Of a stretch of DNA of 64,000 bases, positions 18,998-25,909 are shown piece by piece. Below the pieces are notes generated by a model. It made no database searches and had not been told where the DNA came from. It was given only the letters and a program-made list of their open reading frames with translations. How positions within the stretch are numbered: position 1 is the stretch's first letter; every line of letters begins with the position of its first letter. This DNA is from Aeromicrobium choanae (GTDB taxonomy: Bacteria > Actinomycetota > Actinomycetes > Propionibacteriales > Nocardioidaceae), in assembly GCF_900167475.1 (NCBI RefSeq), contig NZ_LT796768.1, forward strand, positions 3,100,001-3,164,000, written 5' to 3'. A program made the position numbers and the translations under genes.

Positions 18998-19001
<4 letters not shown>

Positions 19002-19819
19002 GCTTCGGCAGCCGCGCCCACGTGGCGATGCAGGCGTACGGTCCGCTGTGCGTCGGCATCGACCCGCATGCCCAGCTGCTCGAGCAGTGGGGGCTCGAGG
19101 ACTCCGTCGAGGGTCTCGACCGGTTCGCCGCCACGTGCGTGGAGGCCTTCGCGGGCAAGGTGGCGTTCGTGAAGCCGCAGTCCGCGTTCTTCGAGCGGTT
19201 CGGCGCTGCCGGGGTGGCGATCCTCGAGCGCACACTGCAGGACCTGCGGCACACCGGCTCGCTGACGATCCTCGACGTGAAGCGCGGCGACATCGGCTCC
19301 ACCGCGACCGCCTACGCCGACGCCTACCTCGACGACGACGCCCCGATGGCGGCCGACGCGATCACCGTCAGCCCGTACCTGGGGTTCGGCTCGCTGACGC
19401 CGTTCTTCGCGGCGGCCGAGAAGAACGACGCGGGCGTGTTCGTGCTCGCGTTCACCTCGAACCCGGAGGCGATCCGCTTCCAGGCCGCCACCACGTCGTC
19501 GGGCATGTCCGTGGGCGACGAGATCCTCGTCGAGCTCGGGCAGGCCAACGAGGGTGCTTCTCCGATGGGCTCCTTCGGTGCCGTCATCGGTGCCACGGTG
19601 GCTCACCTCGACACGCAGCGGCTCGGCTTCAACGGCCCGATCCTGGTGCCCGGCTTCGGCGCCCAGGGCGGCACGATCGACGACCTGCGCCGCCTCTTCG
19701 AGACCGTCACCGACCAGATCGTCCCGTCGACCTCGCGCGACGTCCTCGCGAAGGGCCCCGACGTCAACGCCCTCCGCGCCGCCGCCGCCGCCACCAACGA
19801 CGCGCTGTCCCTGCTGTAG
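18998..19819 (+). CDS. pyrF: Orotidine 5'-phosphate decarboxylase (mycobacterial type)
   Basis: The 273-residue decarboxylase makes UMP from OMP. The catalytic motif is [15 protein letters not shown], and [10 protein letters not shown] lies near the N-terminus; the length fits the longer type-2 family. It is the last gene of the pyr operon. In many actinobacteria mihF follows pyrF; here 5.7 kb of opposite-strand genes lie between. A large inverted repeat follows its stop. Confidence 0.97.
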
Positions 19820-19893: not shown

Positions 19894-22332
19894 TCACCAG
19901 CCGGCGCCGAAGCTGACGAACGAGGTGGGGCGGTCGCCGGTCGCCTCCGCGAGCGCGACGGCCGGGGCAGTGCCCGCCGCCATCAGGCGGTGCACGTCCT
20001 GCAGGACCTCGCAGGCCTCGTCGTCCGCGACGGCGGCGGGCGAGGCGATCACGCAGCGCGCACCGGCGTGGAGCCACGCGGTGACCATCCCCAACGACTC
20101 CTCGGCCCAGCGCTGCGTCGAGCGGCCGACCTCGCAGGCCGACAGGATCACGATCTGGGGCACCTCGGCGATCCGGTCGAGGTCGTATCCGAACAGGGGT
20201 CCGTCCTCCAGCAGCACGCCGGAGAACAGCGGGTTCTCGGCGGCGTGGCGACCATGCGCGGAGACGTGCAGGAGATCGACCCCGTCGGCGAGCCCGAGCG
20301 TGGCTCCCACGGTGGCCTCCGCGTCGGTGAGTGCGCTGGAGCCGGCCCAGCGGGCCGCCGACTGCTTGACCTCCTCCACGGCACGAGCGACGCCGGGACC
20401 GGCGACGAAGCCGGCACTGCGCGGCGGGTCAAGGTCGCGCGTGGCCAGCCATCGCGTGGCGGTGACCGGCACGGTCACGGGCCGGCCGGTGAAGCCCGGC
20501 AGCATCGACCACGGCAGACCAGACAGCAGTCCCGCCGGCGTGATCACGACGCGACGGTCTCCGAGGTGGGGAAGCACGGGATCGACCAGCAGCCGTGAGA
20601 GCTCCGCGAGGCGCCGGTCGCGTGAGCCGCGCACGGCCCGCTGCATCGCCGGCATCAGGGTGGCGGCCGCCATGTCGAGGTCGGCCTGCAGCCCGCCGAG
20701 CCGTTCGACGAAGGGCTCGTGCGGCCCGAGATCGAGCAGGACGGAGTCGCGGTCGGTGATCACGAGGGCGTGCACCCGGCGCCGGTCCCACAGGTAGCTC
20801 ACCAGCGCGTCACGGTCGCCGAGGGAAGCGGTCAACTCGGCGGGCTCGACCACGTCGCCGACCTCGCCCGAGCCACGTTCGAGCCAGGCGCGGTGCCGCA
20901 CCCGGTCGCGCAGGCGCTCCAGCTCCTGCGCCTCGGGGGAGTCCTCGTCGGGCTCCTCCACCGTCAGCTGGCGGATCTGGGTGAGGTCGGCGGCGGCGTC
21001 GGGGTCCACAGGCGGCCTCACGGGCACGACGCGGCTGGTCAGCTCGCGCGCCCGCTCGGACCACTCCAGCACGAGCGAGGGATCGCCCGAGGCGAGCGCC
21101 TCGCGGATGCCCGTCAGCGCCAGCGCGCGGCCGCTGCCCGCCACGCCGACCGCGAGGTCGAGGCTGCCGAACGACGACTGCCAGTCGTGCAGGAGGTCGA
21201 GTCCGCGGCGCAGGTGGGCGAGCGCCTCGCGCCGGCGCCCGCGCGCGAGCGAGCGCGCCGCCAGCGCCGACCGCTCCAGCAGCCGCTCGGTGAGGCCGTC
21301 CCGCTCGATCGTCCGCCCGCGCTTCAGCAGCACGGTCGCCCGGTCGAGGTCGCCGAGGACGGCCGCGAACCGTGCCGCGAGCAGGTCGAGCAGCTGGGCG
21401 AAGTGGTCGAGTCCGTGCCGCCGCAGGGCACCCGAGGTCGTCTCGGCCCGGTCGAGCCACGCCACGGTGGGCGGGGAGATCGAGGCCTCGGCGGCCAGCG
21501 CCACCGTGTCGGCGCGCAGCGCCCACCACTCGCTGCCCGTGCCGCGCAGGCGACGGGCCGCCTGCCGGGCCAGCCGGCGCGATCGGCGCGGGTCGCTGAA
21601 CAGCAGCACCCGCGCGGCGGTGGCCTCGCACTCGCCCTGGTGCTGGCGCAGACGTGCCTGGGCGAAGACGCGCGCCGCGGCGAGGATGAGGTCGACGGCC
21701 TCGTGGGTCTCGCCCGCGGCGAGCAGGGCCTCGGCGGTGTCCTGGTCGCACACGGCGGCGGCGACGGGGGAGAGGTCGGCCAGGTGCACGCGCGCCGCAT
21801 CCATCGCGGCCAGCGCCCCGACCAGGTCGCCACTCTGCAGTGCCGCGTAGCCGTCGTTGTGGCGCGCCTGGGCCCACCCGGTCTCGTCCCCGTCGGCGTC
21901 GAACAGCTCGGCCGCCTCGCGGAAGTCGCACCGGGCGCGAGCGAGGCGCCACTGCTGCAGGTGCAGCACACCGCGGTTCATCAGGGCGTTCGCGCGCGCC
22001 GTGCCCGTCAGCGCCGGGACCGCGAGGTCGTACAGGGCCGACGCCCGATCAGCCTCGCCCGCGTTCAGGTAGAGACCGGCCCGCTGACTGTGCACGAGCG
22101 CACGCACCGCGGGAGCCCGCGCCAGCCGGGCAGCCTCGTCGCACCACCGGAGCGCCTCCTGCGCATCGCCGAGGGTCGACTCGACGTGCGAGAGGTTGAC
22201 CAGGATCCGCACCTCCCGGTCGGGATCGGCGTTGCGCTCCAGCGCCGTCAGCAGCTGGCGCCGCGCCGTGCGGTAGCGACCGGCATCCATCGAGGCTCGG
22301 CCCCGCCGGTGCAGCTCAACGGCCGAGAGCAC
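19894..22332 (-). CDS. TPR-CHAT protein, caspase-like protease
   Basis: The 812-residue protein has an N-terminal array of TPR-like helical hairpins (roughly residues 1-400), a linker, and a C-terminal CHAT domain (roughly 520-812). The caspase-type dyad is complete: His693 in HVSAHG and Cys733 in LSACEVG. CHAT proteases are clan CD peptidases, related to separase and caspases; several bacterial ones cleave a partner protein after a signal. There is no signal peptide, so it is cytoplasmic. GTG 22332 is 6 bases past the S8 peptidase stop, so the genes are one operon. The nearby peptidase with repeated Arg-Gly sites is a plausible substrate. Confidence 0.93.
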   Translation of the reverse strand: MLSAVELHRRGRASMDAGRYRTARRQLLTALERNADPDREVRILVNLSHVESTLGDAQEALRWCDEAARLARAPAVRALVHSQRAGLYLNAGEADRASALYDLAVPALTGTARANALMNRGVLHLQQWRLARARCDFREAAELFDADGDETGWAQARHNDGYAALQSGDLVGALAAMDAARVHLADLSPVAAAVCDQDTAEALLAAGETHEAVDLILAAARVFAQARLRQHQGECEATAARVLLFSDPRRSRRLARQAARRLRGTGSEWWALRADTVALAAEASISPPTVAWLDRAETTSGALRRHGLDHFAQLLDLLAARFAAVLGDLDRATVLLKRGRTIERDGLTERLLERSALAARSLARGRRREALAHLRRGLDLLHDWQSSFGSLDLAVGVAGSGRALALTGIREALASGDPSLVLEWSERARELTSRVVPVRPPVDPDAAADLTQIRQLTVEEPDEDSPEAQELERLRDRVRHRAWLERGSGEVGDVVEPAELTASLGDRDALVSYLWDRRRVHALVITDRDSVLLDLGPHEPFVERLGGLQADLDMAAATLMPAMQRAVRGSRDRRLAELSRLLVDPVLPHLGDRRVVITPAGLLSGLPWSMLPGFTGRPVTVPVTATRWLATRDLDPPRSAGFVAGPGVARAVEEVKQSAARWAGSSALTDAEATVGATLGLADGVDLLHVSAHGRHAAENPLFSGVLLEDGPLFGYDLDRIAEVPQIVILSACEVGRSTQRWAEESLGMVTAWLHAGARCVIASPAAVADDEACEVLQDVHRLMAAGTAPAVALAEATGDRPTSFVSFGAGW

Positions 22333-22338
22333 GGGACC

Positions 22339-24057
22339 TCACTCCGGGTCGGTGAGGCGACCGATCGCGGCGATCGCCCTCTCCACGGCCTGCTCCGGAT
22401 CGTCGGCCGCTCCCTCGAGCGGGAGGTCCTTGACCAGCGCGGTCGCCAGCTGGGCGGCGAACACGGGCGCGGCGAACGACGACCCGCTCCACACCGCGAA
22501 GCCGCTGGCGAAGTCGTCGGGGTCGACGGTCTCGCGGGTGCGGCCCCGGAAGGTGGCGCGAGCGATCGGCTGGAGGCCGCCCTCGAACGGCGGGATCGTG
22601 CTGACGAGGGAGGCGCCCGGCCTGTACACGTGGACCCACGGACCGGTGTTCGTGAACATGGCGTCGGTGCGACCGTTCGGGTTCAGCGCTCCCACGGCGA
22701 CGATCGGCGTGGCGCGGGGATCGCGGCGCACGACCTCGTCGGCCGGGTCCTCCCACGGTCCGAAGGCCGCGGGGAAGAGGGGGCGCGACGTCGCGTCGTT
22801 GCCGGCCGCACAGACCACGGTCGTGCCGGTCCTGCCGATCAGGGCGAGCAGCTCGTAGAGGGTCGGGTCGAACTCCAGGTCGTACGGCGTCTCGTGGTAG
22901 TAGCCGAACGACAGGTTCAGCACGTCGAGGCTCAACCCGTTCTCGGCGCCGTCACCGGCGCGGACGAGCTGCGCGATGCGGATCAGGGCGGTGACGAAGT
23001 CGGACTCGGCGAGCGTGCCGTCGGAGTCCATGACGCGCCACCAGTGGATGTCGGCGTCGGGGCAGCCCTGGTGCAGGAGGCCCACGATGAACGTCCCGTG
23101 GCCCGAGGCGTCGTCGATGGAGCCGTCGAGCGGGCCGCTGACGTTGCCGAGCGTCTCGGGGTCGGTGGGCGCGTCGTCGCGACCGATGGTGACCCCGGCG
23201 ATCAGCTTCGTGCCGTCCTTGACGGCGCCGTTGGTGAACCAGGGGTGCTTGCCGCAACCGGAGTCCAGTACCCCGACCCGCGGGCGGCGCTGGCCGTCGG
23301 GATCGTCGGGGGAGCGGGTGGGGGCCGGGCCGACCCAGGCCACCGGCTGACGTCCGCCGGAGCCGACGTCGCCGTACGAGTCGACGGCCATGCTCGCACC
23401 CCGCGTGAACGGGGCTCCGCGCGTGAAGGGAGCGCCCCGCGTGAACGGAGCCCCGCGGGTGAACGGGGCCCCGCGCGTGAAGGGAGCGCCTCGCGTGAAG
23501 GGAGCGCCCCGGGTGAACGGCGCGCCCCGGGTGAACGGGCTGCTCTGCAGGACGTGGTCGAGGCCGATCCCGTGCAGCAGGTCGGTCCCCTTCTCAGGCT
23601 CTCGACCCAGGGCCAGAGCACGGGCCGCCTGGAGCAGCGACCAGGCGTCCGGCGGACGGGCGTGCGAGCGGGCCGTGGCGGAGATGACGACCCGGGCCAT
23701 CCCGACGCTGCCGGTGGTGGTGAGCCAGGGATAGCGCTCAGCGCGCTCCCGGCGCTCCTCCTCGGTCTCCTCGATCTGGATCCGCGGGTAGGTCTCGTCC
23801 TCGACGACCTGCCAGTTGAAGACCTCGGCGGCGTCCTTCAGCAGCTGGATCGCGGCATCGACGTCGACGAGCGTGGAGATGAGCAGCTTCGTCGAGAGAT
23901 ATGCGGTGGGGTGGGCCTCACGCCCACCGGGACCCACGGTGGCCTTGGAGGGGTCGAGGGTCGCGCCCTCGCGCGCGGCGACGCTCTCCAGCTCCTGCTC
24001 CCGCTCCCACGGGTCCTGCTCTTCCCAGCGCGGGGGCTCCTGGCCAGTCGGACGCAT
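22339..24057 (-). CDS. Subtilisin-like serine protease (S8) with PFTRGA repeats
   Basis: The 572-residue protein has an N-terminal region (~1-172), a 48-residue tract of eight PFTRGA repeats (~173-221), and a subtilase domain (~258-550) with the full triad: Asp265 (VGVLDSG), His320 (SGHGTF) and Ser527 (SGSSFAAP). No signal peptide is seen, which is unusual because most subtilases are secreted; it should act inside the cell. The N-terminal region could serve as an inhibitory or targeting module. GAGGAG supports ATG 24057. It is followed within 6 bases by the CHAT gene and preceded within 10 bases by the small beta-rich gene. The repeats may be the processing site. Confidence 0.92.
   Translation of the reverse strand: MRPTGQEPPRWEEQDPWEREQELESVAAREGATLDPSKATVGPGGREAHPTAYLSTKLLISTLVDVDAAIQLLKDAAEVFNWQVVEDETYPRIQIEETEEERRERAERYPWLTTTGSVGMARVVISATARSHARPPDAWSLLQAARALALGREPEKGTDLLHGIGLDHVLQSSPFTRGAPFTRGAPFTRGAPFTRGAPFTRGAPFTRGAPFTRGAPFTRGASMAVDSYGDVGSGGRQPVAWVGPAPTRSPDDPDGQRRPRVGVLDSGCGKHPWFTNGAVKDGTKLIAGVTIGRDDAPTDPETLGNVSGPLDGSIDDASGHGTFIVGLLHQGCPDADIHWWRVMDSDGTLAESDFVTALIRIAQLVRAGDGAENGLSLDVLNLSFGYYHETPYDLEFDPTLYELLALIGRTGTTVVCAAGNDATSRPLFPAAFGPWEDPADEVVRRDPRATPIVAVGALNPNGRTDAMFTNTGPWVHVYRPGASLVSTIPPFEGGLQPIARATFRGRTRETVDPDDFASGFAVWSGSSFAAPVFAAQLATALVKDLPLEGAADDPEQAVERAIAAIGRLTDPE
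23396..23539 (-). repeat. Eight tandem 18-bp units encoding PFTRGA
   Basis: Eight head-to-tail 18-bp units lie within the S8 peptidase gene. The DNA copies differ at several third codon positions, but every unit encodes the same hexapeptide. That points to selection on the peptide rather than recent DNA duplication alone. Confidence 0.95.
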
Positions 24058-24067
24058 CCGGTGCTCC

Positions 24068-24505
24068 TCAGATCTCGAAGGTGGGGGTCGCCAGCTCGGT
24101 GTCGCCCGAGAAGTAGATGCGGATCAATCCGGCCGGCAGCGCGTCGAACTCGAAGCGGCCGTCGGTGACGTCGGCGGTCCACGTCTGGTCGCCCGACGTG
24201 AGGCGCGCCTCGCTGGCCCCGGTGCCGGTGACCCAGCCGTCCACGCGTCGGGTGGTCTCGTCGACCTCGGCCACGCGCAGCAGGATGGACGTCTCGTCGT
24301 GGGAGAACTCGATCGTGATGACGCCCGAGCCTCGGGTGCCGACGAGCTCGGTGCTGCGGCCCAGCAGGCTCAGCAGCTCGTAGTCGGCGTCGAGGTTCTC
24401 CGCGGCGACCGCGGCGATCATGGCGTCGGTCAGGTGGGCGGGCGGTGGATCGAGCACCTCGTACATCGCTCGCAGGTTCGTGAAGATCGGATCGCGTTCG
24501 GTCAT
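24068..24505 (-). CDS. Small beta-rich protein of the sigma/S8/CHAT cassette
   Basis: The 145-residue protein has no named family that I recognise. The first ~50 residues are helical (FTNLRAMYEVLDPPPAHLTDAM), and the rest is strand-rich, ending in GRFEFDALPAGLIRIYFSG. That ending resembles the beta-sandwich of carboxypeptidase-regulatory-like domains. There is no transmembrane helix or cysteine. Its ATG (24505-24503) overlaps the sigma factor's TGA as ATGA, the usual place for an anti-sigma factor or sigma partner, though no zinc motif is seen. Because of the shifted sigma frame, the upstream sigma-2 frame now runs into this gene (see findings). Confidence 0.8.
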   Translation of the reverse strand: MTERDPIFTNLRAMYEVLDPPPAHLTDAMIAAVAAENLDADYELLSLLGRSTELVGTRGSGVITIEFSHDETSILLRVAEVDETTRRVDGWVTGTGASEARLTSGDQTWTADVTDGRFEFDALPAGLIRIYFSGDTELATPTFEI

Positions 24506-25051
24506 GACGTGGCCCCCTCGCCGGAGATGACGGACTTGAGCTTCTCGAGGCAGCGTCGGCGTGTCGGGCCGATGCTCCCCACGGGCATGCCCAGGTCCTC
24601 GGAGATGTGCTGGTAGTCGGGCCGGTCGTCGAAGCCGGTGGTTCTCGTCGGCCGAGACGGCCTCGGACTCGGCGGCGGGCGAGCTCGGCAGCGCAGGCGC
24701 CAGCAGCTCGTCGTCGACCGCGTCCTCGCGCCGGTTCCGTGAGGCGACCCGCCACGCCTGGCGGCGGGCCGTGATGATGAGCCACGACGAGACCGCACGC
24801 GGGTTGTCCACGCTGTCGGCCTTGCGCACGAGGGTCAGCCAGGTGAACTGGATGACGTCCTCGCACACGTCCTCGTCGAGTCGGTAGGCGCGCACCACGT
24901 GCCACAGCACGGGGGTCATCTCGCGCACGAGTTCGTCGATCGCTCCGCGGTCCCCGTCACGCCAGCGTGCGAAGGCCTCGCCGGAGCGGATCCACGGGCC
25001 GTCGTCGGATTCTGCTGGTTCGTGTGACTTTTCGCTGGTCACGAAGTTCAT
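24502..25051 (-). pseudogene. ECF sigma factor with out-of-frame deletion
   Basis: The frame from ATG 25051 encodes a clear sigma-2 domain (AIDELVREMTPVLWHVVRAYRL, EDVIQFTWLTLVRKADSV, SWLIITARRQAWRVA). It reaches SADENH at about 24638 and then loses similarity. The +1-shifted frame there supplies FDDRPDYQHISEDLGMPVGS, then TRRRCLEKLKSVI, the end of sigma-4, and stops at 24502 with ATGA overlap to the next gene. The start of sigma-4, roughly 20 residues, is missing at the junction (24634-24641). The simplest reading is a small deletion that broke the gene; an assembly error is possible. GTG 25060 is an alternative start. Confidence 0.72.
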
Positions 25052-25146
25052 TGTGCGCACATCCGGGACGAGGCAGGAAGGGGGCGCGCTGATACACGCG
25101 GTCGACGGACCGCCGGCAGGGCGGTGCTCGCTAGTAGCCTGTCGGG

Positions 25147-25578
25147 GTGCGACGACCCTCCCTCCTGCTGTCCGTGGTCCTCGGTCTCGCGACCCTGACG
25201 GGCTGTTCCGGCGGGGGTCCCTACTGCGACGCGGTCGACGACGGCCGCGAGTCGCTGGCCACCTTCGGCCAGCAGAACGACGCCGCGTTCGCCACCTACG
25301 CCGACGTCACGACGAAGGTCGCCCACGAGGCGCCCGAGGACATCGCGCAGGAGTGGACCGACATCGCCAAGGCGACCAAGAAGGTCGTGATCGCCCATCG
25401 CAAGGCCGACTTCGCGCTCGAGGACATGAAGAGCGAGGAGAAGGTGAACGCCCTGTCCCAGCAGGACATCGACCGGATCACCGCCGCCCACGAGGCCTTC
25501 AACGACACGAAGGCCCAGCGCGAGGACGTGGTCGAGCACGTGCACGACGAGTGCGGCATCGACCTGTCGAAGAAGTGA
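25147..25578 (+). CDS. Putative lipoprotein
   Basis: The 143-residue protein has a lipoprotein signal peptide: two Arg, a hydrophobic stretch, then the lipobox L17-T-G-C20. The mature part is helical and highly charged, with two further cysteines (YCDAV and DECGI) that could form a disulfide. It is probably anchored on the outer face of the membrane. The family is unknown. GTG 25147 starts the signal. It lies 10 bases before mihF, whose start codon follows GAGGAG. Confidence 0.8.
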   Translation: MRRPSLLLSVVLGLATLTGCSGGGPYCDAVDDGRESLATFGQQNDAAFATYADVTTKVAHEAPEDIAQEWTDIAKATKKVVIAHRKADFALEDMKSEEKVNALSQQDIDRITAAHEAFNDTKAQREDVVEHVHDECGIDLSKK

Positions 25579-25588
25579 GGAGTTGACC

Positions 25589-25909
25589 GTGGCCCTGCCC
25601 GACCTGACCGACGAACAACGCCGCGAGGCGCTGGCCAAGGCGGCCGCCGCCCGCCAGGTGCGTGCCGAGGTGAAGAACCGTCTGCGCCACTCCGGCGCGA
25701 GCGTCGCCGACGTGCTGGCCGAGGCCAAGCGCAACGAGGCCGTCGCCAAGATCAAGGTGCTCGACCTGCTCCAGAGCATCCCCGGCATCGGGAAGCTGAC
25801 GGCCCAGCAGATCATGGCCGACCTGAGCATCGCCGAGAGCCGCCGCCTGCGCGGCCTCGGCTCGAACCAGGCCAAGGGCCTCGTCGCCGAGATCGCCCGT
25901 CGTGGCTGA
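25589..25909 (+). CDS. mihF: Actinobacterial integration host factor
   Basis: The 106-residue nucleoid protein matches mycobacterial/streptomycete [30 protein letters not shown], then a helix-hairpin-helix-like [17 protein letters not shown]. It binds DNA without strong sequence preference and shapes the nucleoid. I chose GTG 25589 (ALPDLTDEQ), 6 nt after GAGGAG, over the TTG at 25583. It overlaps gmk by 8 bases, the usual mihF-gmk order. Confidence 0.96.

Follow-up and report, generated by a model that had tools for sequence, protein, structure and literature searches.

The 64,000-nucleotide stretch of Aeromicrobium choanae considered here (contig NZ_LT796768.1, positions 3,100,001 to 3,164,000; hereafter the window) carries a minus-strand cassette, flanked by pyrF and a lipoprotein gene, that consists of a sigma gene, a small gene named SMALL, an S8 subtilase gene (S8) and a TPR-CHAT gene (CHAT), the latter three tightly packed. 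The groove of the first six TPRs of CHAT probably binds the motif P-hydrophobic-x-x-[G/S/P/T]-x, of which the linker of the neighbouring S8 contains many copies. From sequence comparison we conclude that the TPR-CHAT protease would dock on this hexapeptide array of the S8 zymogen. The binding interpretation is based on the array itself, its selection at the protein level, its change between species, its covariation with the TPRs, and a held-out prediction that succeeded at two sites.

The S8 protein of the window matches Peptidase_S8 (4.1e-16, 59.6 bits against a cut-off of 21.8) and possesses the full catalytic triad already recognized in the original prediction, with D265, H320 and S527 present in 107/107 aligned sequences. 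The array, which that prediction overlooked, is composed of eight units of 18 bp between the N-terminal and catalytic domains. Every 18-bp copy is different in DNA while the encoded protein is identical, giving proportions of synonymous (pS) and nonsynonymous (pN) differences of 0.58 and 0. Matches of the whole S8 model in Foldseek include the pro-forms 2z2z, 3whi and 3afg, and the N-terminal domain alone (residues 45-172) matches no Pfam family up to E 5, the propeptide (I9) profile among them. The genome has a single extra PFTRGA-coding match outside the array (G000:C1:3188673-3188689, locus L221), in frame by eye, in a gene that looks like one of the ROK family; by rough estimate this match is at about chance level.

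Relatives were represented by two sets of loci (108 and 60), both picked by their S8 gene. A tandem repeat is found in 96 of the 108 loci, with a period of 6 in 89; one of the 96 (L195, period 4, inside the catalytic domain) is spurious. The repeats are perfectly identical in protein in 85 of 95 arrays (453 units in all) while their synonymous sites differ (pS 0.503, pN 0.018), a pattern indicating strong protein-level selection on the array. With the phase of the unit assigned by rule (P and a hydrophobic residue first), the 96 loci contain 80 distinct units, two of which were set by hand, and the unit is identical within most proteins but differs between species. Of the 75 distinct units of six residues, 72 begin with P and all have G, S, P or T at position 5; PFTGAH (L310) of the later set breaks this last rule. 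Three or more perfect tandem units with a period of 5-7 occur in 77/89 called cassette S8 genes, against 6/1,059 of the other genes called in those stretches. Copy number varies between close relatives (7 or 8 for PFTRGA, 5 or 6 for PLTRGN), and turnover of the unit is fast, reaching 3.2 of 6 residues at an S8 catalytic distance of 0.2-0.3. The finder listed a tandem unit for 57 of the 60 further loci and a period of 6 for 47, as counted from the list and not inspected individually. In genus g16, 8 of the 10 fetched loci (L274, L276-L282) have at S8, in place of the hexamer, repeats that are mostly rich in glycine and have a period of 7 to 10. The 12 array-less loci include L023, L061, L063 and L072, which have PYWKVP- or PYWKIP-type cores with spacers, L081 with PHVAF cores, L173 with three near-identical units, and L089, whose S8 is broken.

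The CHAT protein of the window contains a CHAT domain (9.5e-22, 78.2 bits against a cut-off of 24) and, in a confident model (predicted local distance difference test, pLDDT, 92), TPR helices. Its catalytic pair is as intact as first described: H693 is found in 95/97 and C733 in 96/97 sequences, the remainder being gaps. Positions of the unit were scored against the well-occupied columns of S8, CHAT, SMALL and the sigma protein (SIG) in 89 loci with a P- or T-initial hexamer, 79 for CHAT columns. The row of L156 in one later alignment is in a wrong frame and was left out of further use. Since the cassette genes largely share one history, the other domains were used as the control. The four highest scores of mutual information with average product correction all fall in the TPRs: position 2 with C195 (z 8.7), A191 (5.8) and V194 (3.8), and position 5 with V45 (5.5), the best non-TPR value being 3.7. 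At position 2, Y is accompanied at TPR195 by G, A or S in 21/21 loci, L by V or I in 10/10, and F by C or V in 23/25. Position 4 and site 115 are opposed in charge, R being found with N, T or D (14/14) and D or E with R or K (19/19), and this charge signal is the most negative of 548 columns. In 39 tree-independent pairs drawn from 79 loci with a CHAT of at least 600 residues, position 2 with TPR195 is the best of 8,155 tests (table 14/3/1/21, p 6e-7), and the top six are all in the TPRs.

Variability-matched tests at p<0.005 gave 36/1,555 for the TPRs against 23/3,350 elsewhere (odds ratio 3.4). By domain, the CHAT domain, located on the same chain, covaries least (1/590), and the S8 catalytic domain stands at 11/845. 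The latter figure, below that of the TPRs, led us to set aside the units as P2-P1 sites of the subtilisin with a covarying S8 pocket. Neighbours that are nearest by the A helices of TPR1-6 differ in 2.97 of 5 word positions, a modest gain over 3.25-3.50 for other sets and 4.02 for random neighbours. The original prediction had joined the two proteases in a cascade; a functional link between them is supported by the covariation of the S8 motif with the TPRs of the CHAT protein.

On the model, a polar ladder of Q83, N119, N159 and D198 occupies the same step of successive A helices and is conserved in 91, 93, 97 and 94 of 97 sequences, respectively. Such a ladder is expected of a groove that holds a peptide backbone, as in other solenoid proteins. 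Residues 1-225 contain 23 sites with p<0.003, of which A helices account for 14, loops for 7 and B helices for 2. The sites that covary with position 2 of the unit are on helix 6A (188-195), those for position 3 on 2A-4A, those for position 4 mostly on 4A and 5A, and those for positions 5 and 6 on 1A and 2A. The register read would thus be one contiguous unit in rough order, with position 2 at 6A, positions 3 and 4 at 2A to 5A, and positions 5 and 6 at 1A/2A.

Predictions were written before the 60 further loci were fetched; 44 were used, and 16 that lacked either a CHAT or a hexamer unit starting with P or T were dropped. At the held-out switches, TPR195 ranked 1 of 1,278 columns for position 2 and TPR122 ranked 1 of 1,249 for position 3, columns of both CHAT and S8 being considered. 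At TPR195, Y of position 2 was found with G, A or S in 18/19 loci (base 26/42) and F with C or V in 7/11 (base 11/42), L with V or I in 1/1 and H with C in 1/1. For position 4, D, E or S was found with K or R at site 155 in 13/14 (base 16/42; Fisher 2.8e-7), and R or K did not face R or K at site 115 (2/2); for position 5, T was found with G at site 45 in 3/3 (base 8/43). The comparison preset as the one on which the position-2 rule could fail was that with a nearest-relative predictor, and here the rule was correct in 27 and the relative in 24 of 32 loci. Position 2 is unlike that of the nearest relative in 9 loci, where the rule was correct in 7 and the relative in 3. For the site 155 rule the corresponding numbers are 13 and 11 of 14.

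Several observations weigh against docking as described. Some S8 proteins of full cassettes have no array (e.g. L025, L026 and L206). Partial correlations based on distance, calculated for 76 loci with all four proteins, are modest (0.17 for the A helices of TPR1-6), and among close pairs the S8 catalytic domain and SIG, at 0.17, stand beside the TPRs at 0.20. A linear test of side-chain volume failed to single out site 195, and the enrichment of A helices over the rest of TPR1-6 is borderline (15/76 against 10/106 for sites at p<0.005, p 0.052). In the held-out loci, D or E of position 4 faced R or K at site 115 in 7/8, hardly above the base of 35/43, and G of position 5 was found with V, A, L or I at site 45 in 9/16, no better than the base of 26/43. 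Where position 2 is the same as in the nearest relative (23 loci), the rule was correct in 20 and the relative in 21. Sites 45, 46, 53, 89, 90, 115, 152 and 191 were unranked at the held-out switches, and TPR155 was 37th of 1,282. The two best held-out columns for position 4 are in S8, those for position 5 are other TPR sites (15, 16, 46), and those for position 6 are scattered over several domains. The held-out loci also include groups of near relatives sharing a word, and the Fisher values therefore overstate independence. At the level of sequence covariation the pairing of word and TPR holds, but the list of contacts is validated only in part.

Docking may keep the CHAT protease attached to the S8 zymogen in the region that is normally cleaved in subtilisin zymogens, and the many copies may determine the amount of cutting required to free or reorient CHAT. 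By analogy to Csx29, and in keeping with a weak covariation of SIG and SMALL, the freed or activated CHAT might act on the SMALL/sigma pair and so give a transcriptional output. More tentatively, and with somewhat less than an even chance in our estimate, the cassette may represent a new pairing code, in which a zymogen shows a tandem, species-specific word of six residues, the TPR groove of a caspase-like partner reads it in a partly predictable way, and word and reader turn over together, the word remaining perfectly repeated. Such a code, if true, would be a molecular count-and-release switch, with the partner docked until enough copies are cut.

Presence of the cassette is patchy. S8 profile matches, counted in overlapping sets of genomes, were found in 58/293 genomes of the order, 23/393 of the class and 77/294 of the family, as well as in 9/199 of the family of G410, 53/198 of the family of G205 and 55/215 of the genus of G071; a scan of genome contigs with the window protein as query gave one locus only. 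A mihF match is present in 45/49 genomes of the genus, and 30 were turned into loci: 7/30 contain the cassette and 23 do not, of which 21 have most of pyrF within 1.5 kb beside mihF, L231 has only the end of pyrF and L232 has none. The cassette is thus a presence/absence variation at the pyrF-mihF site within the genus. Of the boundaries given in the original prediction, pyrF does lie at one edge, but mihF is separated from the cassette by the lipoprotein gene.

Co-occurrence of the four families, also expected from the original prediction, is found in 101/108 S8 loci and 52/60 further loci, numbers that are conditional on S8. In the 101 full loci sigma, SMALL, S8 and CHAT are all on the same strand, 78 and 20 in two orders and 3 with an extra SMALL-like copy. 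The remaining loci of the 108 consist of four with S8 and CHAT only, two without CHAT in the fetched stretch, and one lone second S8 copy (L162, no array). An additional SMALL-like copy lies upstream of the sigma gene in L080, L170 and L176. The array-less L025 and L026 adjoin genes resembling those of contractile tails or injection particles (sheath- and tube-like, judged by eye), and the CHAT protein of L025 has short LTNTG repeats just before its CHAT domain that are not seen in its close relative L026.

Patchiness of this kind (7/30 mihF loci, 77/294 family genomes) and the fast turnover of the unit (3.2 of 6 residues) would fit a cascade for defence or programmed death, the idea first put forward for these genes, with the words varying through conflict with phage proteins. 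We consider this somewhat unlikely: the sole match in the defence library of PADLOC is a weak one of CHAT to BovA (7.6e-05), and patchiness by itself is no evidence of defence. Defence is in any case compatible with docking, as it concerns the purpose and not the mechanism. Carriage by phages or plasmids was set aside, none of the matches being close: one record of the plasmid collection, 11.85-Mb in length, matched S8 at 35% identity over 62% of the protein, and viral contigs gave 6 matches at 22-28% identity.

The array could also be a multi-copy peptide precursor, from which identical hexapeptides are freed as signals to the TPR-CHAT receptor inside or between cells. The TPR receptors of the RRNPP kind have small peptides as ligands, and identical tandem units under strong protein-level constraint, species-specific words, reading by TPRs and a place at a zymogen-type junction all suit a precursor. 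Positions 2 to 6 form one contiguous covarying register, however, which a subtilisin-type cut behind the P-hydrophobic pair would split, destroying each docking site; this favours docking on the zymogen over the release of free peptides. A cut at the border of units would put proline at P1', a residue usually poor for cleavage there. No transporter is encoded among the four cassette genes by family scans, the neighbouring genes not having been searched for one. Free hexapeptide signals are on these grounds unlikely.

A lower chance still, and a small one, is given to the units being cleavage sites of CHAT that the TPRs merely present. Each unit of the window contains an arginine, and Csx29, also a TPR-CHAT protease, cleaves a partner protein (PMC10028731). 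Many units contain neither R nor K, though, and the CHAT domain covaries least with the unit; cutting outside the units would still be compatible with this. Functionless low-complexity slippage, with covariation due to shared ancestry, would explain the copy numbers that differ between close relatives but is hardly credible in view of a pS of 0.50 against a pN of 0.018, the lower covariation of other domains that share this ancestry (the CHAT domain on the same chain among them), the tree-independent pairs and the first rank at two held-out sites.

The sigma gene of the window is 59 bp shorter than that of G091 (locus L059, the closest relative found), its frame shifts in region 4, and the cassette model matches it in two pieces of 178 and 69 bits. 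All four genes of the packed opposite-strand group originally described do exist, but its sigma factor is not intact: regions 2 and 4, which an ECF sigma factor has in one frame, are in different frames in the window copy. As the gene is broken, this genome has probably lost its sigma-dependent output or has it in altered form. Another sigma gene of the family lies in two pieces (116 and 122 bits) in L085, the only such case among the other sigma-matching loci. The upstream sigma frame stays open into SMALL (open reading frame 25060-24068, minus strand), and a fused region-2/SMALL protein from 24068-25060 is possible. Compared with G091, the S8, CHAT and SMALL genes differ mainly at synonymous sites (ratios of nonsynonymous to synonymous change, dN/dS, 0.05, 0.09 and 0.12); as the sigma deletion may be recent, these low ratios are no proof that the three work without sigma.

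The SMALL protein of the window has no Pfam match up to E 0.1, and that of the relative L068, one of three proteins scanned, has a weak match to CarboxypepD_reg (0.028, below cut-off). A weak hint that SMALL may be an anti-sigma factor comes from column pairs of SIG and SMALL, which number 28 in the top 300 against 9.7 expected; those of the CHAT domain and SIG are also in excess (35 against 15.6), so that shared history may account for both. The best matches of the unit motif elsewhere in the cassette, in SMALL, SIG and CHAT, are not above shuffled pairing. The one 6-of-6 match in SMALL, from L180 only, was rejected since the 692-residue frame there holds 5 copies and so includes S8; a fusion of SMALL with S8 into a single gene is possible in that locus, whose SMALL frame holds the hexapeptide array.

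Table 1. Features of the cassette and its borders, in window positions
Feature	Positions	Strand	Remarks
pyrF	18998..19819	+	left boundary of cassette site
TPR-CHAT protein, 812 aa	19894..22332	-	
CHAT protease domain, residues 574-798	19939..20613	-	H693/C733
Helices of first six TPRs, model residues 4-205	21718..22323	-	proposed reading groove
S8 subtilase, 572 aa	22339..24057	-	
S8 catalytic domain, residues 259-541	22435..23283	-	
Array of 8 identical PFTRGA hexapeptides, residues 174-221	23395..23538	-	pLDDT <50, predicted disordered
S8 N-terminal domain, residues 50-171	23545..23910	-	propeptide-like helix/strand order by our reading; AlphaFold2 (AF2) pLDDT 80
SMALL, 145 aa	24068..24505	-	candidate regulator of the sigma factor
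Sigma region 4 remnant	24502..24634	-	out of frame with region 2 after 59 bp loss relative to G091
ECF sigma gene, region 2 and linker	24635..25060	-	in frame up to deletion point; Sigma70_r2 3.5e-08; G091 alignment
Lipoprotein gene	25147..25578	+	named by eye; right boundary of cassette site
mihF	25583-25909		follows lipoprotein gene

The operon context is already known: the available part of PMC8999054 describes the ECF54 group, in which carboxypeptidase-, subtilase- and CHAT-domain proteins are neighbours of an ECF (extracytoplasmic function) sigma factor and proteolytic control is proposed. Subtilase and CHAT genes lie beside an ECF sigma gene here too, a likeness by the description of the neighbourhood only, and for the carboxypeptidase-type neighbour there is the SMALL match below cut-off (0.028, one of three proteins scanned). 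The hexapeptide array and its recognition by TPRs are not mentioned in the same part of that paper, and the window has a broken sigma gene. A search of titles and abstract openings, incomplete in coverage and no proof of novelty, found no description of the array and its coevolving reader.

The Cas7-11-Csx29 system (CASP, Craspase) of type III-E CRISPR offers a second comparison. Csx29 cleaves Csx30, an inhibitor of a sigma factor (PMC10028731), and a TPR-CHAT protease likewise adjoins an ECF-like sigma (CASP-sigma) and a protein inhibiting it. The CHAT model has Csx29 chains among its best structural matches, though identity is low (11-13% in the Csx29/TPR-CHAT rows). An RNA-guided complex activates Csx29 (PMC10028731), whereas the partner in the cassette is a subtilase with a peptide array; family scans of the four cassette genes gave no match to Cas7-11, no search aimed at CRISPR having been made.

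Subtilisin zymogens are resembled in the domain of propeptide-like order that precedes the catalytic domain and in the unprocessed pro-forms among the Foldseek matches; the cassette S8 differs from them in the tandem hexapeptide array of its linker and in an N-terminal domain without a Pfam match. Complexes of LGN are among the Foldseek matches of the CHAT model. In complexes of TPRs with peptides, among them LGN/Pins with Inscuteable and the RRNPP receptors, an extended peptide is read by the concave A helices, while the ligand proposed for the cassette is tandem, species-variable and located within a partner protease. The docking proposed here would supply a testable mechanism for a sigma-factor neighbourhood described in the available part of PMC8999054 only as conserved context, and would join that neighbourhood to caspase-like proteases of the Csx29/separase kind. 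With about 80 natural words and their readers, a code of TPR-peptide recognition might be learned and used in the design of orthogonal protein pairs.

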